From Isoetes taiwanensis (taxonomy: Eukaryota; Streptophyta; Lycopodiopsida; Isoetales; Isoetaceae): a stretch of 64,000 nucleotides of DNA. A program made the translations under genes and the position numbers. The notes under the pieces are model-generated. The model saw only the letters and a list, made by a program, of their open reading frames with translations. It made no database searches and was not told where the DNA came from. The stretch is taken from NCBI GenBank assembly GCA_021234155.1, contig JAJEKV010000010.1, forward strand, positions 11,084,511 through 11,148,510. Reading direction: 5' to 3'. Positions 11,408 to 63,431 of this stretch are shown here, piece by piece (position 1 is the stretch's first letter; the number at the start of each line of letters is the position of its first letter).

Positions 11408-13561
11408 AACAAAGTTTAAAATGAAATGCACTTATTTGCTGCAAACGCACTTCAAAAGGAATCTTTGAAAGATTCCCTAAAATTCCCTTAAAAAAGTCCA
11501 TTTTTAAGATTTTTTTGTGACAGGTGTGACAATTTAAGTAATTTAGGTACCATTTTTGAGGGGTTGATTGAACATAACTTTCATGCAAAAATTCTAAATA
11601 GCAATTTTCATCCTCCTAAACTAGAATAAAAAATAGTTACTTTTATAAAGTGTAGCAAAAAAGGGGCAATAAAAAAAATAGCAAGGGTAGTAGAGTGACA
11701 AAGAAGTGACATATTCAAGGTTGTGAAAATTGTACAAAATTATGAAGAAAATTGTCAAAAATATAGGACATTTTGACATTGCCTCATCGAAGCAAACATT
11801 TTCACATGAAAGTATGCCTCATTGAACAAACTTACACTTTGAAGTGCAAGTTGGAGTCGAAGACGCCGCTTCATCTCATCTTATATACTTGCTCTTATTT
11901 GCTCATCCGTCTTGCTATAGACCGATGTATACCGCGATGACAATGCGTGGACATAACGTCTTCAAAATAAATTTCTAGATGGTATAAATTTATACTACAA
12001 TAGATAGTGTTGTGTGGATATAACATGCCGTAGAGTTCGCATGGTATAAATTTATACCGCAAGTGGACTCGGCGGTATAAATTTATACCACGAGAGAGCT
12101 CTCATTCATCGAGAGAGCTCTCACCATAAATTTATACCGAGAGCTCCCTGTTATAGCGAGAGAGCTCTCTGGTATAAATTTATACCGTTGAGAGCTCTCG
12201 GTATAAATTTATACCGCATAAACCTTCGGACAACCAATTTATATACATATATGTGTATATATATATAATATATACACATACTTACATATATATATCCCAC
12301 AAGAAAAGAGAACTCTTTATGGTATAAATCTATATGGAGAAACCAAGATAAATTTATACCGAATTGCATATATATATAAGACTTTTATATATATATATGT
12401 ATATATATATGCAGTCCAGAGGCAAAATATATATCGTGTAAAATCTTTTGGGGTCTTTCTTGCTCGCCAAAGCGTTTGGCAACTGAAAACTACTAAAGTA
12501 ACACACATAAGGGATAATTTTACACACTTTTCTTGGTTTTTTAGTCTAAAAAGTTCTAAAACTGTTCTAAATTTTCTAAGCTTGTAATGCAATGTTAGAG
12601 CATAAAGTAGTCGAATCATGTTGTTATTTCTACTTTTTTTTCTCTATATACATGCGAACTTCACTTCAGGTAGCTCAAAAATTGCTACTAAAGGCAAAGA
12701 ACTCCAAAATGTTATGGTGACACAGGTATTTGACGAAAAGGAAACTACATGGTTTATCCAGAGGGGTGCGAGGAGTAGAAACCCCTCGAGAAGTTTACCT
12801 ATTTATTTGCAAATATATAGGAAAGGGTAAGGCGATACTTCAATGCGCCAGAGAAATGTGCATGGTGCCCACTGCTACAGATGACGTAATTGTGATGAAT
12901 ATGCTCAACATTACTAAAGAGATTGACTATCTTCTAAGCATCACCATGTTGTAGAAAGACATGTGCGTTCAAAAATACATCTCCGAGAATAAAAAAGGAG
13001 GGCATGTAATCACAGGGCTTCATTACTTCAACTTGTGTATCCTCGGTATAAATTTATCTTTGCATCATCAACTAAAACTTCAAATTTTAGCTACAAGATA
13101 TCGTGGGATGTATTGGCATTTATAATACTATGTGATGCAAAACAATGGTTTGTCATTCAAGAAGTTTGTTCAACTGCCTCCCAATGTGTTTTAAGGTCCA
13201 TTAGGATGTTTAGCAAAAATGGTTGTGAAATAACAAATTTCTTGTCTTCTAAAAAGACTAATATAAAAGTTTTCAGGGATAAGGTACAAAAGCATCTAAT
13301 TTCTTCATACGAATTTGCCCCATAGTAAATCTTTGAATTTCATTGTAGTTCTTTCCCCCTCTAAAATGGGATTTTTTTTGTTTTGTGTTTTTCCTTAATA
13401 CTAAGTCTTCTTAAAATGTCTGTTTTCACGAGCAATTTTATAAATCTTTGGACTAATGGTAATAAAAGGGCCCTTTTAGAGGGATTTTAGAATTTTATAA
13501 ATTTTCAAAGGAATCTTTCAAACGCTTTCTTAAATAAGTGCGTTTCATTTTAAACCTTGTT
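11408..13561. mobile_element. C1: 2.15-kb terminal-inverted-repeat element, TTTG target duplication
   Basis: The insertion splits an A unit between ...CTCTTTG and GATTGCC. TTTG is present on both sides (11404-11407 and 13562-13565). The left end reads AACAAAGTTTAAAATGAAAT and the right end is its inverse with one or two mismatches. Looser inverted similarity continues for another ~40 bp (GCACTTATTT, GGAATCTTT). Inside lie an AT-rich palindrome field (11981-12360) and a low-grade coding-like stretch (12618-13325). I see no recognisable transposase, so it is probably non-autonomous. A 4-bp duplication does not point clearly to a common plant superfamily. Confidence 0.85.
11981..12360. repeat. 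Palindrome field in C1 (GGTATAAATTTATACC and GAGAGCTCTC)
   Basis: The perfect 16-bp palindrome GGTATAAATTTATACC occurs at 12043-12058, 12074-12089, 12171-12186 and 12200-12215. Imperfect copies lie at 11981, 12123, 12321 and 12347, with a further partial one at 13045. GAGAGCTCTC-type palindromes lie between them at 12092-12103, 12111-12122, about 12157-12169 and 12190-12199. The two motifs alternate. A further AT-rich run of TATATA/TACATATATG self-complementary sequence lies at 12239-12295. Confidence 0.9.
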
Positions 13562-17406: not shown

Positions 17407-17977
17407 AACAAAGTTTAAAATGAAACGCACTTATTTGCTGCAAACGCACTTCAAAAGGAATCTTTGAAAGATTCCCTAAAATTCCCTTAAAAAAGTCCAT
17501 TTTAAAGATTTTTTTGTGACAGGTGTGACAATTTAAGTAATTTAGGTACCATTTTTGAGGGGTTGATTGAACATAACTTTCATGCAAAAATTCTAAATAG
17601 CAATTTTCATCCTCCTAAACTAGAATAAAAAATAGTTACTTTTATAAAGTGTAGCAAAAAAGGGGCAATAAAAAAATAGCAAGGGTAGTAGAGTGACAAA
17701 GAAGTGATATATTCAAGGTTGTGAAAATTGTACAAAATTATGAAGAAAATTGTCAAAAATATAGGACATTTTGACATTGCCTCATCGAAGCAAACATTTT
17801 CACATGAAAGTATGCCTCATTGAACAAACTTACACTTTGAAGTGCAAGTTGGAGTCGAAGACGCTCGCTCTTCATCTTATATACTTGCTCTTATTTGCTC
17901 ATCCGTCTTGCTATAGAGACCATGTATACCGCGATGACAATGCGTGGACATAACGCCTTCAAAATAAATTTCTAGAT

Positions 17978-18400
17978 GGTATAAATTTATACTACAATAG
18001 ATAGTGTTGTGTGGATATAACATGCCGAGAGTTCGCGATGGTATAAATTTATACCGCTAAGTGGACTCGGCGTATAAATTTATACATTGAGAGGACTCTC
18101 ACTCAAATAAATTTATACTGCGAGAGCTCTCTCGATTCAACTGCGAGCTCTCACGGTATAAATTTATACCGCGAGAGCTCCCTCGTTATATCATGAGAGC
18201 TCTCTGGGTATAAATTTATACCGCACAGAGCTCTCTGTATAAAATTTATACCGCTAGACAACCTTCGACAACCAATTTATATACATATATGTGTATATAT
18301 ATATAATATATACACATACTTACATATATATATCCGACAAGAAAAGAGAACTCTTTGGCGGTATAAATCTATACGGAGAAACGGTATAAATTTATACCGA
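17978..18400. repeat. Palindrome field in C2
   Basis: Counterpart of the C1 field. GGTATAAATTTATACC is exact at 18040-18055, 18155-18170 and 18207-18222, with imperfect copies at 17978, 18071, 18233 and 18381. GAGAGCTCTC-type palindromes lie between them. Confidence 0.88.
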
Positions 18401-21756: not shown

Positions 21757-24749
21757 TCAAGGATGTAGATAAAATGTATTATATTTATCATCTTCACCAT
21801 ATTATAAAGGCTCAAAGGTTGAGAGAGCTAATGGCCTACATTTACTTTGGAAAGCAGGAGATTTGAAGAACTTGGTTGTCATGGACAACAAGAACTTGTT
21901 GAATAGTATCCCCTATTTTGTGCCATACCATGGGCACATAAGGCTCACTACAAGCCTAGCACTTATAAAATAAGTAGAATGTTGATGAGTGGCAAGTTCA
22001 TTCTCTTTGGTGAATGGATCATCCCTAGCGATCATCACAAGATATTAATGAGCGTATATAGGGGCGGGGCAACTTCAAAGATCTTGATCAATCTTTGCCA
22101 TTGCATGCCCTCTAATATGAGGACTATTCTCTTTGGATTGCCAAAGTTTATACACCTCTAGAACGTGTTGTTCGGGCCCGTAAAGGTATTGGGATGGTAT
22201 GCCCACCATGATGAATGATGAATTTCCAAATTCACCAATTCGATTCTTCAAATCCGGATGTTACAAGTATTGGAGCCTTGTGTGGATTACATCACAACAA
22301 GATGCACATGCCAAGGTGCACGTTGACACTCCTGCACCTCCCATGGAATTGCCAGGCTCCTTCATAAGCTATGAGATTATGCCTCCCATCTAGATTCCAG
22401 AGTCTATCCCGAAAACCTAAAGAGGTTTTTTTCTATCCATGTTGTATCGAGCATCATTCAAATTAGCATAAAAGCACAAAGGATAGCAGCCTCACTTTGA
22501 ATCTTGAGAGGGCAGCTTAGGGGCTTCTTTCATGTCATTGATGTAGCCATATCTAGTGTTCGTTGGGAACGGATGGAAGTGCCGCTATCCGAGCTCTATA
22601 TTCTCAAGTCTCACATGAGAGCCTTACGAGAACTCTTCTTAAGAAACCATGACTTCATAGAGGATCTCATTAAGGGCCTCCTATGGATTAGATATATGTT
22701 GTTCTTTAGAAAAGTTACTTGCTAAATAGTATATGTGTATATTTCTTGCTTTAGCATTTAGCATATGTACATATTTCTCCCATTATCTATATGCATTCTC
22801 CTTGAGATAGAAATTATAGCATCACTATTTATTTTATCACATGTTATTACTAATCCATTCATTAGCCCTTGTTGGCCTTTTGAAATGTAATGGATCAGTA
22901 GTTGACCATTTACATTGTCAAGGTGTTATGAGAACACATTTTAAATCTCATGAGATGAGGCCATTCAAAGCCCCGTGACCGGGTCCTTTAAGCCTCCTGG
23001 TGTGATATTAGTGTACAAAGCCCTAAAAACAATTAGCTTCATTATTTTGAGGGCTTAGTTGGTTATTGCATGAAGGATGTAGATAAAATGTATTATATTT
23101 ATCATCTTCACCATATTATAAAGGCTCAGGTTGAGAGAGCTAATGGCCTACATTTACTTTGGAAAGCTGGAGATGTGAAGAACTTGGTTGTCATGGACAA
23201 CAAGAACTTGTTGAATAGTATCCCCTATTTTGTGCCATACCATGGGCATATAAGGCTCACTACAAGCCTAGCACTTATAAAATAAGTAGAATGTTGATGA
23301 GTGGCAAGTTCATTCTCTTTGGTGAATGGATCATCCCTAGCGATATTAGCGATATTAATGAGCGTATATAGGGCCAGGGCAACTTCAAAGATCTTGATCA
23401 ATCTTTGCCATTGCATGCCCTCCGATATGTTTATTCTCTTTGGATTGCCGGGCTAGTTTATACCTCTAGAACGTGTTGGTCGGGCCCGTAGAAAGGTATT
23501 GGGATGGTAATGCCCACCATGATGAATGATGAGTTTCCAAATTCACGGCGATTCTTACAAATTCGATGTTACAAGTATTGGAGCCTTGTGTGGGTTACAT
23601 CACAACAAGATGCACATGCCAAGGTGCACGTTGACACTGCTGCACCTCCCATGGAATTGCCAGGCTCCTTCATAAGCTATAAGATTATGCCTCCCATCTA
23701 GATTCCAGAGTCTATCCTGAAAAACCTAAAGAGGTTTCTTCTATACATGTTGTATCGAGCATCATTCAAATTGGCATAAAAGCACAAAGGATAGCAGCCT
23801 CACTTTGAATCTTGAGAGGGCAGCTTAGGGGATTCTTTCATGTCATTGATGTAGCAATATCTAGTGTTCGTTGGGAACAGATGGAAGTGCCGTTATCCGA
23901 GCTCTATATTCTGCGTTCTCACATGAGCCTTACGAGAACTCTTCTTAAGAAACCATGACTTCATAGAGGATCTCATTAAGGGCCTCCTATGGATTAGATA
24001 TATGTTGTTCTTTAGAAAAGTTACTTGCTAAATAGTATATGTGTATATTTCTTGCTTTAGCATATGTACATATTTCTCGCAGATTATCTATATGCATTCT
24101 CCTTGAGATAGAAATTATAGCATCACTATTTATTTTATCACATGTTATTACTAATCCATTCATTAGCCCTTGTTGGCCTTTTGAAATGTACGAGATCTCT
24201 GTAGTTGACCATTTACATTGTCAAGGTGTTATGAGAACACATTTTAAATCTCTGTATGAGGCCATTCAAAGCCCCGTGGACTGGTTCTCTAAGCCTCTTG
24301 GTGTGATATTAGTGTACAAAGCCCTAAAAACAATTAGCTTCATTATTTTGATGGGTTAATTGGTTATTGCATGAAGGATGTAGATAAAATGTATTATATT
24401 TATCATCTTCACCATATTATAAAGGCTCAGGGTTGAAAGAGCTAATGGCCTACATTTACTTTGGAAAGCGGGAGATGTGAAGAACTTGGTTGTCATGGAC
24501 AACAAGAACTTGTTGAATAGTATCTATCCCCTATTTTGTGCCATACCATGGGCACATAAGGCTCACTACAAGCCTAGCACTTATAAAATAAGTAGAATGT
24601 TGATGAGTGGCAAGTTCATTCTCTTTGGTGAATGGATCATCCCTAGCGATCTTCGCATATTAATGAGCGTATATAGGGCGAGGCAACTTCAAAGATCTTG
24701 ATCAATCTTTGCCATTGCATGCCCTCTAATATGAGGACTATTCTCTTTG
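21757..24749 (+). repeat. A-unit block 7 (copies at 22841 and 24142)
   Basis: Unit remainder after B4, one complete unit (22841-24141) and the left part of a third, interrupted by C3. This block has the highest density of small multi-base differences in the array. They are concentrated at CG and CTG/CAG sites. Confidence 0.9.
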
Positions 24750-26942
24750 AACAAAGTTTAAAATGAAACGCTTGTTATTTGTTGCAAGGTACTTCAAAAG
24801 GAATCTTTGAAAGATTCCCTAAAATTCCATAAAAAAGTCCATTTTTAAGATTTTTTTGTGACAGGTGTGACAATTTAACCAAAATTTAGGTACCATTTTT
24901 TGAGGGGTTGATTGAACATAACTTTCATGCAAAATTCTAAATAGCAATTTTCATCCTCCTAAACTAGAATAAAAATAGTTACTTTTATAAAGTGTAGCAA
25001 AAAGGGCAATAAAAAAAATAGCAAGGGTAGTAGAGTGACAAAGAAGTGATATATTCAAGGTTGTGAAAATTGTACAAAATTATGAAGAAAATTGTCAAAA
25101 ATATAGGACATTTTGACATTGCCTCATCGAAACAAACATTTTCACATGAAAGTATGCCTCATTGAACAAACTTACACTTTGAAGTGCAAGTTGGAAGCCT
25201 TTCCGCTCTTCATCTTATATACTTGCTCTTATTTGCTCATCCGCCTTGCTATAGACCGATGTATACCGCGATGACAATCTCGTGGACATAACGTCTTCAA
25301 AATAAATTTCTAGATGGTATAAATTTATACTACAATAGATAGTGTTGTGTGGATATAACATGCCGTAGGAGAGAGTTAAGCATGGTATAAATTTATACCG
25401 GGAGTGGACTCGGCGGTATAAATTTATACCGTGAGAGGACTCTCTATCGGTATAAATTTATAGCATGAGATCTCTCTCGATTCAACTGCGTTGAGCTCTC
25501 ACGGTATAAATTTATACCAAAAGGAGAGCTCCTTATCTACTCAAGAGCTCTCTGTATAAATTTATACTTGCGAGAGAGCTCTCTTATAAATTTATACACA
25601 TGAACAACCTTCGGGACAACCAATTTATATACATATATGTGTATATATATATAATATATACACATACTTACATATATATATCAAGAAAAAAAGAGAACTC
25701 TTAATGTATAAATCTATCACGGAGAAACGGTATATAAATTTATACGAATTTATATATATATAAGACTTTTATATATATATGTATATATATATATGCATCC
25801 ATCGAGCAAAATATATATCGTGGTAAAATCTTTTGGGGTCTTTCTTGCTTTCCAAAGCGTTTGTAACCTAAAACTACTAAAGTAACACACATAAGGGATA
25901 ATTTTACACACTTTTCTTGGTTTTTAGTCTAAAAGTTCTAAACTGTTCTAAATTTTCTAAGCTTGTAATGCAATGTTAGAGCATAAAGTAGTCGAATCAT
26001 GTTGTTATTTCTACTTTTTTTTCTCTATATACATGCGAACTTCACTTGTGTAGCTCAAAAATTGCTACTAAAGGCAAAGAACTCCAAAATGTTATGGTGA
26101 CCACAGGTATTTGACGAAAGGAAACTACATGGTTTATCCAGGAGGGGTCGCGAGGTTTAGAAACCCCTCGAAGTTTACCTATTTATTTGCAAATATATAG
26201 GAAAGGGTAAGGCAGACGAATACTTCACTGCCAGAGAAATGTGCATGGTGCCCATTGCTACAGATGACGTAATTGTGATGAATATGCTCAACATTACTAA
26301 AGAGATTGACTATCTTCCGAGCATCACCATGTTGTAGAAAGACATGTAGTTCAAAATACATCTCCGAGAATAAAAAAGGAGGGCATGTAATCACGGGGCT
26401 TCATTACTTCAACTTGTGTATCCTCGGTATAAATTTATACTTGCATCATCAACTAAAACTTCACTTAGCTACAAGATATAAGTGGATGTATTGGCATTTA
26501 TAATACTATGTGATGCAAAAACAATGGTTTGTCATTCAAGAAGTTTGTTCAACTCCTCCCAATGTGTTTTAAGGTCCATTAGGATGTTTAGCAAAAATGG
26601 TTGTGAAATAACAAATTTCTTGTCTTCTAAAACAGCTAATATAAAAGTTTTCAGGGACAAGGTACAAAAGCATCTAATTTCTTCATACGAATTTGCCCCA
26701 TAGTAAATCTTTGAATTTCATTGTAGTTCTTTCCCCCTCTAAAATGGGATTTTTTTTGTTTTGTGTTTTTCCTTAATACTAAGTCTTCTTAAAATGTCTG
26801 TTTTCACGAGCAATTTTATAAATCTTTGGACTAATGGTAATAAAAGGGCCCTTTTTAGAGGGATTTTAGAATTTTATAAATTTTCAAAAGGAATCTTTCA
26901 AACGCACTTCTTAAATAAGTGCGTTTCATTTTAAACCTTGTT
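24750..26942. mobile_element. C3: third copy of the TTTG terminal-inverted-repeat element
   Basis: Same ends and site as C1 and C2, with TTTG at 24746-24749 and 26943-26946. It is the most degraded of the three copies, with many small changes in the GGTATAAATTTATACC repeats and at CG positions. Confidence 0.85.
25316..25745. repeat. Palindrome field in C3
   Basis: Counterpart of the C1 field with more decayed copies. GGTATAAATTTATACC or close variants occur at 25316, 25384, 25415, 25449, 25503, 25552 and 25580, with GAGAGCTCTC relatives between them. Confidence 0.85.
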
Positions 26943-43475: not shown

Positions 43476-44129
43476 CTAGCACATATTAACTTCGGCAGTA
43501 GTAGAATAAGGGGATTCATCAAGGGCCAACCATCGATTGACATTAAATCGCTTGGCAGCAGCTCCATCCTTTGAAACATCTATAAAGTTCAAATACCACC
43601 CAGGTTTGTCGCCGGTTTGTCGCCTGTATTATCATGCCATACACGCATGCGACAAATTCCATGAATGCATGCACCTTGCCTAGTGAAGGTATCATAGTTG
43701 CACTTCTCAAAGTCATTACGATTATGAGCATTTAGGTTGTTGAAAGTCACAGAGTGACCAGCAGCATTATAAAATTGTACACTTACGTTGGCATCTGTAC
43801 CGGCATTTTCTCGACAATCGGTCTTGACAGCGATTGAATAAGTGCAACCCTGCAATAGCAAATACCTTAGACACGAAAAGAGGAAAATGGTCTAAACAAC
43901 ATCAAGCCCCATCATTAGCAATACATGCATATGCATTCCAGCATACTCTATGCAACACTTGGAAATAATCTAAGCACCACTTCTTAATATGCAACCCTTT
44001 GAAAATGATTTCACCATGCACTTTCTTGATAAGAAATCACAAATTCTAAAAGATGCAATTTCTTACAAATGCAACTTTGGTGGTCATAAGCAAGAGTACA
44101 AGGATGCCATAGCTTTGTAGTCGAGCCAT
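43476..44129 (-). pseudogene. Secreted PLAT/LH2-domain gene, two exons, frame broken by 11-bp duplication
   Basis: Exon 1 (44129-44067) encodes 21 residues starting MARLQSYGILVLLL, a clear signal peptide, and ends at GTAAGA. Exon 2 (43849-43476) begins after TTGCAG in phase with CTYSIAVKTDCRENAGTDAN and continues through GACIHGICRMRVWHDNTGDKP to GWYLNFIDVSKDG, the classic order of a plant PLAT (polycystin-1, lipoxygenase, alpha-toxin) stress protein. Such proteins are extracellular or ER single-domain beta-sandwiches linked to abiotic stress. The tandem 11-bp repeat GGCGACAAACC (43614-43624 and 43603-43613) shifts the frame just before the GWYL motif and gives a stop at 43589. Without the duplication the two exons would make a normal-looking 141-residue protein. 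This is either a fresh null allele or an assembly error. Confidence 0.82.
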
Positions 44130-44439: not shown

Positions 44440-44492
44440 GTGGAAACCCTTCCCGATTTCCTTGCATGATGGAAATTGGGAAGGGTTTCCAC
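44440..44492. repeat. 22-bp-arm hairpin with GTGGAAACCCTTCCC core
   Basis: Left arm 44440-44461 starts GTGGAAACCCTTCCC. The right arm 44471-44492 is its inverse with one mismatch, and the loop is 9 bases. An adjoining imperfect palindrome (CTCAAAATTCAAATTTTGAG, 44421-44440) extends the structure leftwards. The same core forms a hairpin at 48067. Confidence 0.88.
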
Positions 44493-44585
44493 AGGAGGAG
44501 GAAAATAGGAAGGGTTTCCACAGGAGGAGGAAAACAGGTTAGGTTTCCACATGAGGAGGAAAATAGGTTAGGTTTCCACATGCAG
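44481..44585 (+). repeat. 29-bp tandem repeat, about 3.6 copies
   Basis: Units start at 44481, 44510, 44539 and 44568, each beginning RRGGTTTCCACA and followed by GAGGAGGAAAA. The first unit overlaps the right arm of the 44440 hairpin, so the tandem growth started from that arm. Confidence 0.9.
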
Positions 44586-45649: not shown

Positions 45650-46240
45650 TTAAAGTGACAAAAACGCTGATTTCTCCAGAAGATTAAAGGTATGTTTTCC
45701 ACCCTCATCATTAGAATATGACGCAATTATAGCATTCCAAGAAACTATACTCCTATTGGACATATGGTCAAATACTTTAAATGCATCCTTTCGCGCACCA
45801 GCAGCAATTGTACAATCAGCCATATTCTTAATCAAAGCATGAACCAACTTACCCTCTTCAAGAGTGGTGCATGCACCTAAAATAGCAATAAGGGTAACAA
45901 CATTCGGTTTAAAACCAGAAGACTACATTTTGTCTAATAAACAGATGGTTTCTCTACTGTTCCCAATATATGCATATGTGGAAATAATGGCTGTCCAGGA
46001 AATTACATCTCTCTGATGCATCTTCTCAAATACTGTTTGTGCATCGCCTACAGCCTCGCAATTATTATACATAGAAATCAATGCGTTTCCAACATTAACT
46101 TCTTTGTCTAGCCCAACTTCAATACTATAGGCATGAATAAGCCTACCCTCTGTTATGAACTCAAAACTGGTGCATGCACTCAGCACGGTCATAGCAGTGA
46201 CGTTTTGTTTGGATGCATATTCTCCAGCTGCATTTCACAT
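45650..46240 (-). pseudogene. PPR (pentatricopeptide repeat) gene fragment, interrupted
   Basis: Read from 46240 downward, it shows PLS-type PPR motifs: TVLSACTSFEFITEGRLIHA, GNALISMYNNC, DAQTVFEKMHQRDVISWTAI, then an in-frame TAG at 45923-45925, then KPNVVTLIAILGACTTLEEG and DAFKVFDHMSNRSIVSWNAI. Part of one motif is missing between KLVHALIKNMADCTI and AAGARKDAFKVF. PPR proteins bind organellar RNA for editing, splicing or stability. This piece has no start, no organelle-targeting peptide and no C-terminal E/DYW domain, so it is a decayed fragment. Confidence 0.85.
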
Positions 46241-47266: not shown

Positions 47267-48066
47267 AATGGATATCCGAAATCTTTCTTTGGCAAAGAAC
47301 TATAATATCCTGCCTGTTGGCACTTGAACCCTACCGCAAAACCTGACCATATGTCTTTAAGGTAATTCGTTTTGTTCCTATTTGTTGCCCTTACTGCATT
47401 AGTCACCCAGAACCCATGTTCATAATTTAACAGAATTCCCATCTGCACTCATTTTCAACAGTGGTCGATAGATATTCTCTGAAACTTTAAAAGAGGACCA
47501 ACTTGCAAATTGGACAGGATAGATCGATGGCTACTTGCACATTTGGAAGAATGCGAGGATACATGTCTGAAAAAAAGCAAGAAAAAGAGGCGGGCATGAG
47601 GCAGACAAGAGGCAAGATCAAGAGGTAGCTTGTGCAGCTAGATAAAAGGGCCAACAAAAAGAATTAATAATCGCCCACATCAGAACAGAACTGCCCAGCC
47701 TCTGAATTTGATTGATACTACTTCTAAACATGCCCCAGCTGCCGCTGTTGTACACCCTCGCCCTCTACTCTCATCTCTGCTGCAAATCCGTGGACCTCGA
47801 AAAAATTTTCTGAACCCCTCTGCTCCAATCCGGCAAAACGAAATGCGCAAAGGCGAAGCTCTAAAACATGGCCGAATCCGTCACCCATAGAACCATAAAC
47901 GGAATGCAAATCTGTATTAAGCGCTGCCCAAAGAATCTGTGACACCGGAGAAGACGTGAGAAGAAAAAAAAATCTTTCTAAAAAGCCTCTTCGAAATAGC
48001 CGTGGGAATTAAATCTGGTCATTAATTAACGGCGGCGGATTTCTTGTTCCGAAAAATTCCAATTTC
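47267..48066. other. Probable 5' flank of minus-strand gene, GC-richer patch
   Basis: No gene called. The patch 47690-47940 is less AT-rich than its surroundings and contains short open frames on both strands, consistent with a leader or promoter region of the minus-strand gene. No motif is decisive. Confidence 0.3.
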
Positions 48067-48140
48067 AGTGGAAACCCTTCCGGGGTTCTAATATGGAAAC
48101 CCTTCCGGGTTTCCATGTAGAACCCGGAAGGGTTTCCACT
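48067..48140. repeat. Nested double hairpin with GTGGAAACCCTTCC core
   Basis: The outer arms 48067-48090 and 48118-48140 are inverse copies with a single one-base indel. Between them, 48093-48116 is itself a hairpin: ATGGAAACCC, loop TTCC, GGGTTTCCAT. The core is shared with the hairpin at 44440 and the repeats at 44481-44585. Confidence 0.9.
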
Positions 48141-49345: not shown

Positions 49346-50820
49346 TCACAAATGCCTTGACTCATCTAGGCAACCACATTTTGCATACATATCAACAAGT
49401 GCATTTCCAACAACATCAGAGTCAAGTCCATGTTTTAAGATCTGGTCATGCATAAGTCTACCATTCCCTGTAGCTCCTAAACTACCAAACACTTTTAAGA
49501 TGATTGAAAATGTGAAGTTATCTGGCTCTATGCCCTCTAATTGCATTTTCTCAAAGCAGTCAAAAGCCAAAAGACTATCATTCTGTGCGTATCCTGCAAT
49601 GATTACATCCCAGGACAGCACATCTCGACTCCACAAGTTGTCAAACACTTTACAGGACTGTTCTGAACTATTGCACTTGGCATACATGTCAACAAGAGTG
49701 TTTCCCACAATGGTATCTGCTTAAAGCCCAAGGCTAATAAGACTACCATGAATAAGTCTGCCTTGCTGAATTGCTTTACTCTTGATACATGCTTTCAAGA
49801 TACTTGGAAATGTAACTTTATCTCGCTTTATGCCCTCTTCTTGCATCCCATGAAATGATTCCAGGGCAAGAACCCCTTCGTCGTGCTATACATAACCTGT
49901 AATAACTGTATCACAAGCTACAACGTCCTTAACAGTCATGTTTCTGAATACTTTGTGTGATTCCCGCAAACTGCCACATTTTGCATACATATCAACAAGG
50001 GTACTTTCCAGAGGCGCATCAGATATAAGTCTGCCTTGTTCAATGCATTCAATATGACCACATGCTTTTAATGTGCTTAGAAATATAACTTTGTCTGCCC
50101 TAACGCCATCCTTTTGCATCTTCTGAAAACAATCTAGGGCAAGAGAATCTCCGCCATATTCTGCACACCCTGAAATCATGGCCCCCAAAGATACCACATT
50201 CGTGAGTTTGTAAACCTTCCAAGACATCACGTGATTCTTCTAAGCTTCTGCATTTTGCGTACATATTGATAAGGGTGCTTCCAATGGCAACATCAAAATC
50301 AATTCCACTTCCAAGAACCTGATGATGGATTTCCCTTCCTTGTTGGAGAGCACCTATCATGCCACATCCTTTAAGAATAGCAAGATAAACACATTTATCG
50401 GCTTTTGATGCCCGAAAGTTGCATTTTGCTATATAGAAGAAGGGCATCGCACCACTCCCAAGATTAGCATGAGCTGAGATAATTGCACTCCATGAGTACA
50501 CACTTGGGTGCAAAATTTTATAAAATGCTTGATTAGCTTCATCCAAACATCCACAGAAGCAAATAGATCGAATAAGGTGGTTGCCCGTAATTTCAACGAG
50601 AATCAATTTTGGCAAAGACCATAAGGGACCGCACTTGCTTGCCTCTATCCCGGTCCTTATTTCTCGCTACACTTGCTAAAGAAGGCGTAATGCATTGTCT
50701 CGGGATATGGGGACATGCTCCAGCTCCAAAAGCTCAAGTGCTCCATCTAAACGTCCTGTCTTGCATAGACTGCTCAGGTAGTCCAAAACCCTGTACAGGA
50801 GGAGCAACGACAATATGGGC
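49346..50820 (-). pseudogene. PLS-type PPR pseudogene with stops and a frameshift
   Basis: Read from 50820 downward, it carries an N-terminal motif (LDYLSSLCKTGRLDGALELL), two stops near 50677-50667, then GNHLIRSICFCGCLDEANQA, VYSWSAIISAHANLG, INMYAKCRSLEESRDV, a frameshift near 50220, GAMISGCAEYGGDSLALDCF, VDMYAKCGSLRESHKVF, a stop at 49886-49888, another near 49721, GNTLVDMYAKCNSSEQSCKV, LSWDVIIAGYAQND, and a last GNALVDMYAKCGCLDESRHL before a stop at 49346. At least six PPR repeats are visible, with no E or DYW domain. Intact relatives act on organellar transcripts. This copy cannot be translated through. Confidence 0.9.
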
Positions 50821-51186: not shown

Positions 51187-53357
51187 TATATGGACACCTC
51201 ATACTACCGATTTCTAGATGTTCTCTGTTTGTTCAGCCTTGCTGGATGATTGATTTCTTGTAGATGGTTGATTTCTCCTCCGATGGGAATTTGGCGGTCG
51301 TGGTTTATGATTCTCTGTTTATTCTAGATTGTTCTAGCTTAGTTAATCATGTTCGTTACAGCTGGTTGATCTCTCCTCCGATTGGGTTTTAGGGGTCGTT
51401 GTTTTCGAGAGATCTAGTTGTTTTTGGCCTTTTAACTTTGCTATAGGGTTTCTTTCTGTTTCTTGCTTCTTCTATTTGCAGGAAATCGTGGAAGGCGGCG
51501 AACATTTAGTTCCAGTGCAGTGATTAGGATTCTGGTCGGCCGTTGCAACGGATGTCTTTAACGACTAAGCAGCTCAATTCATTTGGTAACGATCTGTTCG
51601 TGCCAATTTATTATATTTCTTTGTGTTCTTTTTTTTCCAGATGGGGCTCCCTTTCGGCATGTTCATAGCTTTGATGCAGATTGAATAAGAAGCTATAACA
51701 TCGACACAATAGTCTGCAGTGGCTAAGAAGCTGGGGTTTTTCTGGAAATTTCCTGGCGGGATCTGCTGCCTCCGCAAATCTTGTCTCTCCACTGCACATG
51801 CCATAGATCTCAAAGTGGCTTCTAAATTTTCTGGGTGCTTCTCGGTGCCCCTCTGTATTCTTGAAGTCGTCGAATCAACTTCTGGAGTTCCGGTGAGTTT
51901 TTGAGCAATGAAGGAGGTATTTCTCTTTTGGGTCCTGAGATTTTTTGCAGGTTTAGACCATGATTGATCACTACAAGGTTCTTTTCTTCTTGGTTATATC
52001 TATTTCATCTAGTTTTTTCTGCTTGACTTAACTTCCGTCTGCATCCCTTTTGTGCTTGATTCCAGCCTGCTTTATTTCTGGATTGCAATCTGTATGTAAA
52101 AGTCCTATTTCATTTTCGACTTGGCCCAGACCTTACCAGAGTACCTTTTGTTCTTCAATCATTTTTCTGTGACAGATTAGCTGCTCTTGATCTTGATCTG
52201 GTATGCCAGCTTCAAATTCCGTATGTTCCTTGAGATTAAGAAGCTTCTTACTTAGGTGCTTCAATTACTTGTGTGCTTATGTAAGCAAGGGATCCAGCGG
52301 CGACGACCATAGCTGCTTCTTGTTTTGCCGTTGCAGTGATAAGTAGGGCTTTGCGCAGAGCTACTTACTGCTTTAGTCTGTGACAGGGAATTTATGACGG
52401 ATATATAAAATTCCAAATAACAATAATTCATGTCTAGTTTGTTGGTCGTTTGGTTGGCTCCATCGTTTCTTGTGGTGGGTGCCAGGGTTCGAATCCTTCC
52501 TGCTTCAAACCACGCTTTAAATTTTTCATAAGGTGAGCTTTTATGTTTTAAATTCTAATATTCCTCATCGTTTGGTTGGTCGCCTTTTGTGGTGGATGCC
52601 AGGGCCATAGGTTTCTCCTTGTTCGGTGTGCTAGGAGATTCTGGGTGCCTTCATAAGGATGCCCAAATGTGATTGATCGTAGTGGGCTGCAAGGTTATGG
52701 TTCGGAAATACTTCTTTAGTGATGGCATGCATCTCTCTTCTTCGTTGGACTCACGATAGTGGAGGTAATGGTCCTTTGTTATCTTCCAGATTTGCTCCCA
52801 TTCTAGGTTGGTTCGATCTTGCACGGTTGCTTGTGGTACTCATTACATCATGCCATTATGCGTTGGACGTTTTTGATGCATGTTATAGTTGATGCATTGC
52901 CTTCATGACTCGTTGCATCAATTATGGTTGCATCGATTTGGTCCATTCCCACCATTCTATACATTTGATCATTTTTTCGGCGTGTCAAATTGCTGCATTT
53001 TCTATCTATTGGGGGATATCATTGATTAGGTGGATATTTAGTCTTGGCTTTGCCCTCATAGATTATTTTCTTTATTTATTATTTTTCTCAATGGTTGGTC
53101 CTTTCTCTGTTCTTGGGCTTTTGTTTTAGTCTTATATAGTTCTCAGATAATTTTCAATGTTTTGCTTTCGATGCCCTTCGGCTGTACTCTCTTCTCACTT
53201 CTATGTGCCTAAACATTATCTTTTGTAGATCATAGCATGTCTTGTTCCTGTCATTTTCTCTCTTTGATTGTCTGATTGCGTTTTTCTCTATCATAATTCC
53301 CTAGTCTTTTTTATCTAATTGCTCGTAGTCCTCCATTAGCCTGTCTCTTTGCTTTGT

Positions 53358-53505
53358 TAGTATTATTTATCATGTTTCCTTTGGTTCCGTTCATCTCCCT
53401 GGTCATTACTTGCTCCTTTTTTCTCGTTTGCTAGTATTATTTGTCATGTTTACTTTGCTTCCATTCATCTCCCTGGTCATTACATGCTCCTTTTTTCTCA
53501 ACTAC
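53358..53505 (+). repeat. 74-bp tandem duplication in the pyrimidine-rich element
   Basis: TAGTATTATTTATCATGTTT...CTCCTTTTTTCTC recurs with a 74-bp period (starts at 53358 and 53432). Confidence 0.85.
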
Positions 53506-56500
53506 TTCTTTCTACTACTTTGCTCCGTCTAATTCGTTTTTTCTCTATTACACCATACTGGGTAACTCTTACTTCATATCTCATTTTTACGATTTTACAC
53601 AATGTGCTCTTATTATTCATTGTTCTTACCATATTCAAAAAATATGTGCTTGCATTTTTGCCATGTTGTCTTTTTGCCGTCCCCAGTGATATATCTTGTT
53701 TTATATTGACATGGCCAAAGTTATGTGCTTGTGCCCCTAATTTTGCACTAGGATCTTATTTAGTTAAAACCTTGGTGCTAACTCCTTTCGTCCTTTGATC
53801 CCCTGTGCTGCATACTTCAGTTTAGTCGTTTGATTCACATTCAGTTGCTTATGCCATTTGCCCATTTGCTCCATGTTTGTATTTTGTTCCATTGGTGTCA
53901 TTGCTCTGGTGGCTTTGGGCTTAGTTGAGTAGAGTTGTGCCCAGTTGTCCTTTCGTCCGGGTTGTTCTATAGTTCCATTGATGTCATTGTTTTAGTTGCT
54001 ACATATTCTTATCAATTTTCTTTGTCACATTAGTCCTATATTCTTATCATTTCTCCTCGTTACATTGGTCCCATTGGTCCGGTATTCTTATCGTTGTTTC
54101 TTCGTTATATTGGCCCTATCTATTTTTTGATTCATTAGTTTCAATTTTTAATCAATAGCCTCCTGCTCTTTAGTTCCATTTTAGTTCAAGTGCTATTTAC
54201 AAGTTGTTGTCATTCTTTGACTTTGTTTGGTGCTTTATTCGCATACCTAGGCCCATCTAGGTTCGCTCTTTTATATGCTCATTACATATTTGCATGGGTT
54301 GTTCATGGTACCCACTTTTCATGCATTTGATTCGATGCATGTATCTGATATTGAATGTTTTTCATCGAGTTTCTCCATAATGTCGCACATTTCTATATGC
54401 TTCTTATTCTAGACCATGCTTGTGCTTTGTTTTGTCATACGCATAGGTACATCCTTTCCATCCATTCTTTAGGTAAGTGCACACTCCTTTCTCGATTAGT
54501 TTTGGATTTCTCTCGTTGATGTCTTTGGGGGCGTAGATTTTCTCTCTATCAAATTTTCTCAGATTTTTCATGGATGCCTTTGAGTGCCTTTTAGGCATCT
54601 GCAGTGGGTGACCTTGGTTGCTTTGAATTCCTATTTTTTCATTCTCCTCAATAGGTTCACGTCGTATTTCTATAGATATCTCATAGGATGTCTTGCCTTC
54701 ATATCAGTTTTATGGTATTGCCTTTTTATTGACTTGGATTTTCTCATTTGCACACAATTTTTTCCCTCTTGAGTGGCTTAGTGACAGGCTTTATGCTCCC
54801 TGTAACATATACGTATCTATCTATCTATCTATTTATCTATCTTTCCTGATTTTGTTCGGAGGTGCTCTTGCACAGGTTGCTTGTGGTACTCGCTTTCCTT
54901 GGTTCCCTTTTTTGTGCTATTTGCTGCTGATGTGGAACAAGAAGACCTACAAGGATTTTAAGTCCTTTGCCAAGCCAGCCTTCTGTAGTTCTCGAGCAAC
55001 TTAGCTGACTACAGCACGGGTGAACCTATAGCTATAGCCAAACCTTGTTTCTCTTCTATTCTATTTCTATTATGTACAAATCGTGCACAAAAGCAATGCA
55101 ATCCTTTGTGCATGTCCTCTCTCTCTCTCCATGTCTCCCGAAATCTTTCAGTACATATGGCGTAAGACGATTTCACATATCGAGGTCGGGATGGGATCGG
55201 GTGTTTTCACGTCTTACCGGCTGCTTGCTGTGTTCAGTGACTTACTTGATTATGGTCATGTACATAGCAATTCTTCGATATTGCATACATTTAATTCTTT
55301 CTTCAAATTGCACTATTTGGTATGTTTGATCTGGGGTTGCTCATCGTTTCTATTATATCTATTTTCAAGTACTTTATGCCTTTATTTCGTTCATTCCATT
55401 TTGTCGGGAGATTTATTCGTTTCTAGGTGTGCTCTTTGCTCCCTTTAACTGTTTCTATGTTCTTGGCTTTCACCCTTTGTTATCTCCGTTTTTAGATCCA
55501 TTGTGCTCGCTCTATCAGCCTCATCTGTGCATCATGTTTCATTTTGTTCCATTGACACTTGTAGGCTCATTTCTTATTTTCTTTATACCATATTTTCAAT
55601 TGTCCCCCTTTCTTGGCTTTGCATTACTCATGCCGTCCTTCTTTCACGGTAGCTCTTAAGGGCAGTTTATAGTTCTTCTATCACGATTTTTTCTTTGGTG
55701 ATTGCTTGTGACGGCATTATGGTGATGCGTTTTTTGTTGGCCTATTCAACACGGTGTCTTTACTTGGCTTCTTTTTGCTCTATGTCAATTTTTATGCATT
55801 CGCATGGGTTCATCTATTTTAGTGCATCTGATCCCTTGGTTCATAAGATATTGGTGTAGATAAAGAATCATCTTGCATGTTGCATCTTTGCTAGTTTTCC
55901 TTTGGTGCTTTCCTTCTCGTTGTAAAGCTTTTATTACATAGTTCTTCTCCACCATTGTTCTTTCCAAATTTTTGAGTTGTCTCTACTTGTCATAGTTTAT
56001 TTTATCTATCTTATTGGCATTGGAATCTTTGTGGGTGTTTGTTTGCGTTGGGACCTTTGACTTTATTTTCCAGTTGAAGACACATATTTAGGTCATCCTG
56101 ATTGAGCCATTCATTTATAGCGTCACCTATCCGGTTGTTTGTCATGTTATTCCTAGTTCTCTATCTTTCGCTTTAGTCATCCTATTTGCAGTTGCATTCG
56201 CCCTTTTTGGGAACCCCTTTTTTGCTTCGATACTCTTGCCTTTGTGCTCTTGCTCCCTATATGTGTAGTTTTGGATACTATTAATTTTCCACCTATTGGA
56301 TTAATTTTCTACCTATTGGTCCGTCCCGTTTGGTGCCATGTTAGTCATGTTTTTCTGGTCTCTAGCTCATTTTTTGTTCACTCTCTGTTTGGCAATTTTG
56401 TTGACTTCTTGTCGTCAGTTATCGTTTAATCACTTTTAGTTTTGGTGTTGCTGGGCTCTTTTCTCCACTCCACTTCTTTGCCATGTCTATTCTATCTTCT

Positions 56501-57445
56501 GACTTGGTCTATTGTGGTTTGTTCCGCTCCAGTTGCTATACGCTGCTCGTTATCTTGGTGGCTCCATTTGATGTCACTTCTCTATTCGGTTGTATTTGCA
56601 TTGTTTCCTTCATTAAGTTCCTTTGGCTTGTGTTCCGTTTAACTTTGTTGACGTTATAGCTCCTTTAGTGGCTTCAGTTTCTTCTTTGGTTTTTGTTTTC
56701 TTGCTCCTTTTTCTATTTGCCAATTAGGTTAGTTCATTTCACTGTCTGTGTTAGTGTAGTAGTTACTGGTATGTTCTTGAGAACTTTAATTTGTTGGGGT
56801 CGTCATGTTCGTGGTTTTGTATGCTGCTATCCCATAGGTTCTTTACCCCATCTCAAGTTCTTTTTCTATCTCCCACTGCATTGTTCCATTGTGTCCCTTC
56901 ATTTTAGGCATCCCATTGTTCGGATTTTAGCTTACTTGCTCATTCTATTTCTTCATTGCTCCATTTGTTCCGTTTTCTCTTTATCCCCTTTTTTGCTCCA
57001 TTTTCTTGGTTTCCTCTTCCTTCCATTTACTCGGGCTGCTTTGGTTCCTCTTTTGTTCTCGATAAGCCATCTCCTCTGGTACTTTGGTAACCCTTGCTTG
57101 CCCCTTCTGCTTCATGTGTCCCTATACTCTTCTCGTTGTCTCATTATCCTCTTTTATCTCTGTTATCTCATATATTCCTTGATCCTTTGTATTCTAGCCA
57201 TTCTATTTGTCGTTTCCTCCATTTATTTGTTCCTTCCTTTCTCCTCATGTCAACCTAGTTGCTCTATTTTTCTTAGTTTCCTCTTCCTTCGTTTTACTCT
57301 GATTGCTATCAGCCTTATCTATGCATTCTTTTCTAGTAACCTTGTAGACTCGTTTCTCCCTTTCTTTATACTATTTTTCTCTTTAGCTTCTCTTCCTTTT
57401 CAGTTTCCATGCTGAGTAGTTTTTTGAGTTTGTTCCTCTTCTATC

Positions 57446-57483
57446 GGCCAGTATATGCCTATCATAGGACCCATCCTAGGAAT
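57446..57483 (+). repeat. 38-bp direct repeat, first copy
   Basis: GGCCAGTATATGCCTATCAT... to CCTAGGAAT, identical to 58419-58456. Confidence 0.95.
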
Positions 57484-57522
57484 GCCACGGTTCTATTGCG
57501 ACAGCAATAGAACCGACATTCC
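57479..57522. repeat. Hairpin at the junction of the two element copies
   Basis: GGAATGCCACGGTTCTATTG, a short loop, then CAATAGAACCGACATTCC: an inverted repeat with a small internal mismatch. At the left end of copy 1 the related sequence is ATGCCACGGTCTAGAACCGACAT, in which the loop and inner stem are missing. Confidence 0.85.
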
Positions 57523-57637
57523 TTGGATGGGGACGTCCCTTTGTCACTCATCCTATCTATTCAGCCTCTCTTCATTGTTCTATCATCGGCGTTCTCTTTA
57601 GCTAGTTTTCTCCTTCTTCTCTATCCTATCAGTTTCC
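57508..57637 (+). repeat. 130-bp direct repeat, right copy
   Basis: Second copy of the sequence at 51057-51186, 6.45 kb away. Confidence 0.95.
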
Positions 57638-57723
57638 CTCACCCTCCCTCCCTTGATGGTTTTTTCATTTGATCGTATTCGTTATTTCTTTTTCTATGTC
57701 CTTTACATTTGCATTCTTTATTC

Positions 57724-58046
57724 CCTCAGCGTGGCTTTGTAGCCTCTGAGGCGTACTTATTGGTTTACTCTTTCTCGGCATGGCACTAGTATTTTATTTA
57801 TTCATTCATGTTTTCTCTCAGTCTGGCATTGTAGCCTCTGAGTCAATATTTATTATTCATATTTTCTCTCGGCGTGGCGCTGTTGCCTCCGAGATCATAT
57901 TTATTGTTTTTTCTCGACGTGGCGCTGTAGCCTCCGAGGCAGCACTAATCGGTTGTTTTTTTTTTTCCCGCGATGGTCATTCCGTGGATGGTTCCTGATT
58001 GGTCGGCTGTTGTTTTCTTTCTCGGCGTGGCCCTGGAGCCTCCGAG
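57724..58046 (+). repeat. Five copies of a 26-bp hairpin motif
   Basis: Copies at 57724-57751, 57817-57842, 57868-57893, 57913-57938 and 58021-58046, each beginning CTCGGCGTGG and ending GCCTCCGAG or a close variant, so the ends pair (CTCGG/CCGAG). The changes in the outer arms are partly compensatory: CTCAG pairs with CTGAG in the first two copies. A partial copy lies at 57774. Confidence 0.88.
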
Positions 58047-61619: not shown

Positions 61620-61861
61620 CTAGTTTGAAGAGAACATACATGCAGAATCGTTGCAAAAGCAACACTTGGCATAATGCTTTCATGCTGCATTATCTGAACA
61701 AGTTCAAGAGCTTCCTTATCATACCCATTTTGAACATGTCCTGAAATTATGGCAGTCGAGGAGATAACATTCGGTTTTAAGATTCCATTAAGGCTTCCAA
61801 TTCATCATCCAGACATGCATTATCTGGTATTTCTATAAATAGTTCCCAAGCATCATGCAAC

Positions 61862-62565
61862 CAGGGATAGGTTCAATACTGTATACGTTTTATACGCAAT
61901 ACGTATTTTTCGTTTGATACGACACAAATTTGACGTTTAATACATCAAAAATACGGCTAAAAAAATTTCCGGCGTCGAAAACTTTCGCGTAAGCGAAAAC
62001 AACTATTTCGCTTACGCGAAGTCTGGTTCGCGTAAGCGAAACAGTATTTTTCGCTTACGCGAACCAGAAATAGTTTCGCGTAAGCAAAATGAACTGTTTC
62101 GCTTACGCGAAAACATCTTCGCGTAAGCGAAACAGTCAACTTCGCGTAAGCGAACGCGCCTCGAAATATATATAGAAAACTTCGCGTAAGCGAAAACTTC
62201 TGCTTCGCTTACGCGAACCGCCCTTCGCGTAAGCGAAATGCAAAGAATGCTTACGCGAACAAAAAAAAGTTTCGCGTAAGCGAACCTTTATACTTCGCTT
62301 ACGCGAAAAGAGTTTCGCGTAAGCGAACATTAAGGCTTCGCTTACGCGAAAGCCGGCGAGGGGATTCGCGTAAGCGAAAACTTAGACTTCGCTTACGCGA
62401 AAGAAAGTTCGCGTAAGCGAAACAGAAGGTTTCGCTTACGCGAAACTTTTTTTTTTCCGGCCGGCGAGTATTAAATATGAAAAATACGTATTTTTCCCAA
62501 AAATACGTATTTTTGCACTTTATACGTCTGAAAAAATAGTTTCATACGTACAGAACCTATCCCTG
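61862..62565. mobile_element. hAT-type non-autonomous element, 704 bp
   Basis: Terminal inverted repeats CAGGGATAGGTTC (61862-61874) and GAACCTATCCCTG (62553-62565) are exact over 13 bp. The 8-bp target duplication CATGCAAC is exact (61854-61861 and 62566-62573). An 8-bp duplication plus CAGGG-type ends are diagnostic of the hAT superfamily. Subterminal copies of ATACGTATTTTT and TATACG occur near both ends, resembling transposase-binding repeats. There is no transposase. The interior is almost entirely the palindrome array described separately. Confidence 0.93.
61984..62444. repeat. Array of 20 alternating 14-bp hairpin motifs (TTCGCGTAAGCGAA)
   Basis: Motif starts, F = TTCGCGTAAGCGAA and R = TTCGCTTACGCGAA: 61984F, 62007R, 62027F, 62050R; 62075F (one mismatch), 62098R, 62118F, 62141F; 62181F, 62204R, 62224F, 62246R (first two bases and one more altered); 62271F, 62294R, 62314F, 62337R; 62365F, 62388R, 62408F, 62431R. 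Start-to-start spacing in every set of four is 23, 20, 23 (one 22). Each motif has 5-bp arms around a 4-base loop, and neighbouring F and R motifs are complementary over all 14 bases. Confidence 0.96.
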
Positions 62566-62880
62566 CATGCAACATACCTCTGTGGCCATAAGCAGCAAGC
62601 AAAATATTCCACAAGTATATGTTCCTATTGAATATAATGTCAAAGATATCTTGCATCACAAACAGCTCTGCGTTTACCATACATGAGCAAGAGGAGATTT
62701 TGCAAGAATCTAAAATCATTTTTGATTCCGCAATGTAAGATGTGGGAATGTATCAACTTGCCTTCTGGAAGAGTTTCTGTATAAGAATTGATTTATAAGA
62801 GAAGCATAGCTAAAAGGTGTAATCTTCAAGCTCTCATGCTCAGACTCCTTGCTTACCTTTGAGCTTCCGTGTGAAGAAAA

Positions 62881-63125: not shown

Positions 63126-63147
63126 CACAACAAGAAAATGGTCATTT

Positions 63148-63364
63148 AGCGACGTCTATAGCGACGTCTGAGCGACGTCTATGCGACGCCGTCGACGGCT
63201 ACGTCGCACGGCGCCTCCACGACGTCGTTGTGCGTATTATCGCCGCATGCGACGCGGCGTCGCGATGCGACGCCGGCGCGCGCCGCCGCCGTCGCGCAGA
63301 CGTGACTCAGACGTCGCGTGCGACGTGACATCGCGTGCGACGTGACGTCGCGTGCGACGTGGTG
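63148..63364. repeat. GCGACGT subterminal repeat array
   Basis: GCGACGTC occurs at 63149, 63160 and 63171, then GCGACGCC, CGTCGC and GCGTGCGACGT variants in both orientations to 63361. The stretch is very GC-rich in an AT-rich neighbourhood. Multiple short inverted and direct copies next to the terminus are typical of CACTA subterminal transposase-binding regions. Confidence 0.85.
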
Positions 63365-63367
63365 GAC

Positions 63368-63402
63368 GAAAAAAAAATAAAAAAAAAAATTTAAAAAAAA
63401 AA

Positions 63403-63431
<29 letters not shown>
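63368..63431 (+). repeat. A-rich tract
   Basis: Almost pure A with a few T, about 64 bases. Its position after the GC-rich array and before coding-like sequence suggests expansion within the element. Length is unreliable in any assembly. Confidence 0.9.

Follow-up and report, generated by a model that had tools for sequence, protein, structure and literature searches.

What could maintain a regularly spaced array of 20 near-identical palindromes inside a short transposable element that appears to code for no protein, and what, if anything, reads it? The question arises from an element at positions 61862–62565 of the stretch of Isoetes taiwanensis DNA analysed here (64,000 nucleotides, hereafter the window), and it bears on two open problems, namely how elements that code for no protein secure transposase at the expense of their autonomous partners, and for what reason hAT transposases assemble into large multimers. 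With its 20 almost perfect sites at nearly constant intervals, a single short element would lend itself directly to tests of these problems; if the binder is instead a host factor, the element would be a mobile array of regulatory sites. We assessed the ends, the interior and the surroundings of the element, and weighed the explanations that could account for its array.

Results

Ends of the element and hAT assignment

The element is 704 bp long and is bounded by exact 13-bp terminal inverted repeats (TIRs) and an exact 8-bp target-site duplication (TSD), in agreement with a previous reading made from the sequence only. The left TIR, CAGGGATAGGTTC (61862–61874, plus strand), is mirrored by its complement GAACCTATCCCTG on the right (62553–62565, minus strand), and the TSD CATGCAAC flanks the element at 61854–61861 and 62566–62573 (no strand is assigned to features except where one is given). 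hAT transposons are recognised structurally by an 8-bp duplication together with short ends of the CAGGG type. The TIRs here have a CAGGG-type start, and the subterminal regions are packed with short repeats, TACG and CGTA together occurring 13 times in the 243 bp of the two ends compared to 0.76 expected from the window. Based on this structure of TIR, 8-bp TSD and repeat-packed ends, we consider it nearly certain that the element is a non-autonomous hAT, and the superfamily named by the sequence-only reading is thereby supported. None of the seven listed open reading frames (ORFs) of at least 75 aa that overlap the element had a Pfam match (E threshold 0.1 for six of them and 0.001 for the seventh), and the element, which appears to code for no protein and would need the enzyme of a partner, is also MITE-like in being short and non-coding with a TIR and a TSD. 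The exactness of both TIRs and TSD suggests that the insertion is recent.

Other element classes fitted less well. CACTA elements have CACTA ends and a 3-bp TSD, and foldback elements have long, internally repetitive TIRs, whereas the element has CAGGG ends, an 8-bp TSD and an exact TIR of 13 bp, with ends that differ beyond it. Nor did the element fit the Ac/Ds subfamily, as AAACGG subterminal repeats are absent from the element (0 occurrences) and its TIR follows what we take to be the 11-bp Ac TIR over the first 7 bases only, after which the 13-bp TIR differs.

Read on the minus strand, the sequence flanking the element on the right closes with NRNIYLWNILLAAYGHRGMLH and that on the left opens with LHDAWELFIEIPDN. 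Inspected by eye, the two resemble fragments of a single pentatricopeptide repeat (PPR), and the insertion site thus appears to be PPR-like; Pfam gave no match for the right-hand flanking ORF (E up to 0.001). PPR gene pieces in several frames were also observed on the minus strand at 45650–46234 and 49346–50666 of the window, where five ORFs had Pfam PPR matches, pointing to a land-plant source.

Elsewhere in the window, a tandem array with a basic unit of ~1.3 kb and 20 unit starts occupies positions 1–43000; its 19 intervals comprise ten of 1231–1310 bp, eight of 2466–3504 bp and one of 6609 bp, and the unit at 22263 contains short scrambled patches unlike the other units, which could be an assembly error. 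Adjoining the end of this array is a minus-strand ORF (43589–43891) with a match to embryo-specific protein 3/PLAT (ATS3, E 7.8e-13), for which tblastn detected no second copy in the window. Repeats resembling GGAAACCCTTCC are arranged in tandem at 44471–44585 and in both orientations at 48060–48140, and T exceeds A very strongly on the plus strand across 52001–58000 (AT skew −0.40, −0.40 and −0.53 in three 2-kb bins).

Geometry of the interior array

Between 61984 and 62444 we found 20 copies of a 14-bp imperfect palindrome, present either as TTCGCGTAAGCGAA (F) or as its complement TTCGCTTACGCGAA (R). Eighteen were exact in one orientation or the other, and those at 62075 and 62246 carried one and three mismatches, respectively (4 of 280 motif positions differing). 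Scanning both strands with up to 3 mismatches returned 39 rows on these 20 sites, compared to a mean of 2.20 and a maximum of 7 in shuffled sequence. The previously described 20 near-perfect copies in five sets of four were therefore recovered in full. The assertion that two thirds of the element is motif holds for the span of the array (461 bp), while the motif letters amount to 280 of 704 bp (40%).

Set 1 (61984–62063) comprises motifs at 61984 F, 62007 R, 62027 F and 62050 R with gaps of 9, 6 and 9 bp, and the same gaps separate those of set 2 (62075–62154), at 62075 F (the copy with one mismatch), 62098 R, 62118 F and 62141 F (flipped). Set 3 (62181–62259), with motifs at 62181 F, 62204 R, 62224 F and 62246 R (three mismatches), has gaps of 9, 6 and 8 bp, and the 9, 6 and 9 bp arrangement returns in set 4 (62271–62350; 62271 F, 62294 R, 62314 F, 62337 R) and set 5 (62365–62444; 62365 F, 62388 R, 62408 F, 62431 R). 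Gap lengths within sets thus fit a 9/6/9 plan in 14 of 15 cases, and start-to-start steps are 23, 20 and 23 bp in four sets, as proposed earlier, and 23, 20 and 22 bp in set 3, where the proposal fails at the last step. Gaps between sets measure 11, 26, 11 and 14 bp, placing set starts 91, 106, 90 and 94 bp apart, in line with the separations of about 91–106 bp first reported. The alternating order F-R-F-R is followed by 19 of the 20 motifs, and the exception at 62141 is the one that had already been pointed out; such a fit has a probability of ~4e-5 if orientations are independent, which duplication would make them not be. A regular set reads as the same plan from either strand, R being the complement of F.

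The steps of 20 and 23 bp had further been suggested to place the motifs on similar faces of the helix. Across all 20 sites the Rayleigh R was 0.05 at 10.5 bp, with values of 0.53 at 10.3 bp and 0.57 at 11.5 bp when periods were scanned. Within a set R reached 0.79 (0.88 in set 3), a value equalled or exceeded by 21 of 121 alternative gap choices. These figures do not support the suggestion, or two turns of DNA as the cause of the spacing, and we reject an alignment on one helix face over the array as a whole.

Searches for relatives of the element returned little. Matches to the 13-bp TIR elsewhere in the window all had 3 mismatches and were fewer than chance would give (8 in all compared to 12.36 expected), and no second copy of the element was found in the window, where no resemblance exceeded 15 aligned bases. 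Motif pairs (F, a gap of 4–30, R) occurred in 0 stretches of viral contigs and 0 of prokaryote genomes, neither collection being of plants, and the element had no match among plasmid and phage records, which as non-plant collections carry little weight. Rfam models at gathering scores gave 0 matches over the whole window. Literature searches with the letters of the motif, its inverse, the TIRs and an end repeat gave no paper that by its title concerned a hAT element, and a search by topic gave no hAT with such an interior among the matches listed (titles and the starts of abstracts), in a search that left most subscription journals outside and from which we do not claim absence from print.

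Conserved motifs and divergent gaps

We compared the gaps at the 9-nt positions using the nine of ten that are equal in length (the 8-bp gap of set 3 was dropped). Mean identity was 0.414 when gaps of the second pair were complemented, compared to 0.269 when letters were shuffled within gaps (0 of 10,000 shuffles reached the observed value), and 0.383 compared to 0.274 when gaps were read directly (3 of 10,000). As identity exceeds that of the shuffles, the 9-nt gaps keep a trace of a common source, while the 6-nt gaps showed no trace of common ancestry (0.20 compared to 0.22). In comparisons with one gap shifted by 1 base, 35 of 512 orientation choices were at least as good as the symmetric one, and gaps in first and third position did not separate as groups (56 of 252 splits were as good). 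The gaps have probably diverged by mutation from a common unit. Jukes-Cantor distances were ~1.14 substitutions per site for gaps and 0.028 for motifs, a ratio near 40 within a single copy that is rough, coming from very short sequences, and meaningless if the gaps had no common unit. Regardless of how the gaps descended, motifs are intact, gap lengths are near-constant and gap letters differ. The proposal that selection or recent amplification has acted on the motif is upheld to this extent, that within one copy the motifs differ roughly 40-fold less than the 9-bp gaps.

The CpGs of the motifs are also intact (58 of 60) in a window that is CpG-depleted overall (ratio 0.57). The ends of the element outside the array are CpG-rich as well (ratio 2.6), so CpG richness extends over the element as a whole and may in part be owed to its young age. 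No compensatory variants occurred among the 20 motifs, and this, together with 18 of 20 being identical letter for letter, favours a sequence-specific site over a hairpin. This contrast within the element is the strongest signal found, and it fits selection on a spaced, putative sequence-specific binding site better than it fits hairpins or plain expansion; of the roles suggested earlier, protein binding is favoured over hairpin formation.

Subterminal repeats and the TACG core

The left subterminal region (61875–61983) contains TACG at 61884, 61893, 61900, 61918 and 61952 and CGTA at 61902, and the right (62445–62552) contains TACG at 62485, 62504, 62523 and 62545 and CGTA at 62487, 62506 and 62547. 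The longer form ATACG is found 12 times in the two ends compared to 0.22 expected. TACG spacing is 19, 19 and 22 bp at the right end, near the 20–23 bp steps of the array, and irregular at the left (9, 7, 18 and 34 bp). The tetramer is also present on one strand in all 20 motifs, giving 33 occurrences in the element (18 TACG, 15 CGTA). There is thus a hint that one protein may read both the ends and the array through TACG; the link is weak because 12% of shuffled motifs hold TACG or CGTA by chance.

Discussion

Considering the array as a whole, we propose that the interior is a binding-site array kept by selection on mobility, with a hAT transposase as the binder, a reading to which we assign a probability of about 0.42. 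A binding site is supported because conservation is letter for letter and because 14 of 15 gap lengths within sets are kept even though their letters differ; selection rather than conversion as the force that maintains the motif, and the transposase as its binder, are presumed. Under this proposal the element would be a non-coding hAT whose interior consists of sequence-specific protein-binding sites preserved by selection on mobility, and each 14-bp imperfect palindrome would offer a pair of sites to the zinc-finger (BED) domains of a hAT transposase supplied in trans. With gaps close to 9/6/9 throughout, a multimeric transposase would meet four such double sites at a time, one four-site set possibly serving one tetramer of dimers, and the array would capture or concentrate the enzyme, supplementing the TACG-rich sites of the two ends. 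The position of the array counts against the docking of transposase in the interior, as it begins 122 bp inside the left end and the hAT sites known to matter lie near element ends. Further points against it are that the conservation is that of a single copy, that the TACG link is weak, that the left-end cores are irregularly spaced, that the 6-nt gaps carry no sign of shared origin and that gaps in first and third position do not separate; within the window, no transposase of the family was found. The proposal also gains nothing from orientation or phase, since the motifs share no common helix face and one of them is flipped.

Published systems, which we cite from portions of each paper, provide points on both sides. 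The transposase of the insect hAT Hermes, a tetramer of dimers, engages an imperfect palindrome through two BED domains that bind cooperatively and with rigid spacing; the Hermes right end, in contrast, is bound by no BED domain, which counts against docking (PMC10368747). The Ac transposase binds repeated subterminal AAACGG hexamers cooperatively, but Ac excised none of the tested Ds-l elements, most of which contain AAACGG, so the hexamers are insufficient for mobility (PMC3260210). Proteins derived from hAT transposases have varied DNA preferences, often for CGG or CGC (PMC8097297). We found no comparable interior array in the portions of the hAT literature examined. A more ambitious version of the proposal would be that a hAT lineage turned its interior into a docking lattice for transposase, consisting of five four-site quasi-palindrome modules, each laid out identically on either strand, suited to a transposase that is a tetramer of dimers and allowing non-coding copies to out-compete others for the enzyme; we regard this as decidedly improbable.

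The main rival binder is a host nuclear protein (a transcription, replication or chromatin factor), whose site the element might have amplified to stay open or expressed. Motifs conserved letter for letter at almost constant spacing would suit any protein that binds a specific sequence, and the motif has no obvious match to the end repeats beyond TACG. The E2F site, which we take to be TTTSSCGS, does not supply an identity for the motif, as all nine occurrences in the window lie outside the element. Amplification of transcription factor binding sites by plant MITEs, hAT MITEs included, is established (PMC12595863, PMC13317346). We consider a host binder unlikely.

The array could also be filler without function, in which an inverted pair expanded in the manner of a minisatellite and was captured by, or grew inside, a non-autonomous hAT; the motifs would then be alike through recent expansion or gene conversion and the gaps either different from the start or mutated. 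Tandem Repeats Finder reported arrays with periods of 43 and 91–94 (61–86% matches in the period rows), CCGGCG recurs at three set borders, as in block duplication, and Ds elements often contain filler DNA (PMC3260210). Expansion would, however, copy gaps together with motifs, yet the gaps differ ~40-fold more, and gap lengths hold where letters do not. Conversion tracts would need to stop at the edge of each 14-bp motif, 20 times. A minisatellite in the strict sense, with head-to-tail units alike in their gaps as well, does not describe an array with motifs alike and gaps unlike, and filler in the broader sense we find doubtful.

A process acting genome-wide, through replication, repair or assembly error, might change the stretches between palindromes while the palindromes stay, and is kept as a rival because the window holds two other palindrome-rich stretches, both with sequence different from the element's motif. 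One is a block of alternating palindromes present in three copies (11822–12300, 17820–18340 and 25162–25690), which contain 5, 5 and 7 copies of TATAAATTTATA and 4, 2 and 1 copies of GAGAGCTCTC. The other, at 63147–63431, is built on GCGACGTC and GACGTCGC, with palindromes over 63147–63361 and an A-rich run at 63369–63431. In the three-copy block, columns were identical at 64 of 78 positions in TATAAATTTATA and 211 of 249 in the surroundings compared to 84 of 158 in the stretches between (alignment gaps counted as differences), so its TATAAATTTATA cores are about as conserved as their surroundings and the between-stretches much less. Its GAGCTC columns are nevertheless not conserved (25 of 45), and its gap lengths and copy numbers vary, unlike the near-fixed 9/6/9 plan, and we judge such a process very unlikely to explain the element.

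That structure itself is what counts, with alternating copies forming long RNA or DNA hairpins as a source of small RNA or as a cruciform, is equally remote: the whole element folds at −341.7 kcal/mol as RNA compared to −181.15 for 20 shuffles and at −235.1 compared to −109.59 as DNA, motif pairs fold at −21.9 and −22.4, and MITE transcripts can feed siRNA (PMC12595863), yet any array of inverted copies would fold strongly, and folding strength is rejected as proof of hairpin function, a selected hairpin would permit paired motif changes of which none was seen, and one motif is flipped.

The closest known systems share some features with the element and differ in others. The maize Ds elements (Ac/Ds family: Ds1, Ds2, Ds-l4) are likewise short non-coding hATs with an 8-bp TSD, a short TIR, CG-containing subterminal repeats and an unrelated interior, but they differ in their AAACGG repeats and in having variable filler where the element has a regular array (PMC3260210). 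The Hermes left end, with quasi-palindromic BED sites, shares an imperfect palindrome, rigid spacing and many short sites. Every motif of the element holds AAGC, the weak Hermes half-site, which did not bind in isolation, and the Hermes sites lie near the end (bp 11–27) compared to 20 interior copies of other sequence in a plant host (PMC10368747). In the soybean CACTA element Tgm, one motif is repeated many times in both orientations (24 repeats in the right border), and its copies form stem-loops and are thought to be read by a TNPA-like protein, binding by which that paper did not show; Tgm belongs to another superfamily with a 3-bp TSD, and its motifs are subterminal and less regular (PMC2613891). 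Galileo of Drosophila also carries tandem repeats inside the element, which are secondary transposase-binding sites (some tested by EMSA), but it is a P-superfamily element with a THAP domain and long TIRs that hold these repeats (PMC3688188). Plant MITEs with amplified sites for E2F and other factors, hATs among them, are similarly short and non-coding and carry protein-binding motifs; theirs include E2F sites, compared to no TTTSSCGS in the element, and no 5 × 4 geometry is described for them in the portions consulted (PMC12595863, PMC13317346). Coral CMITEs are related to piggyBac, with interiors that are conserved between families and not described, in the portion consulted, as a motif array, and they resemble the element in that their interior is more conserved than expected, for which a role in transposition has been proposed (PMC2872659).
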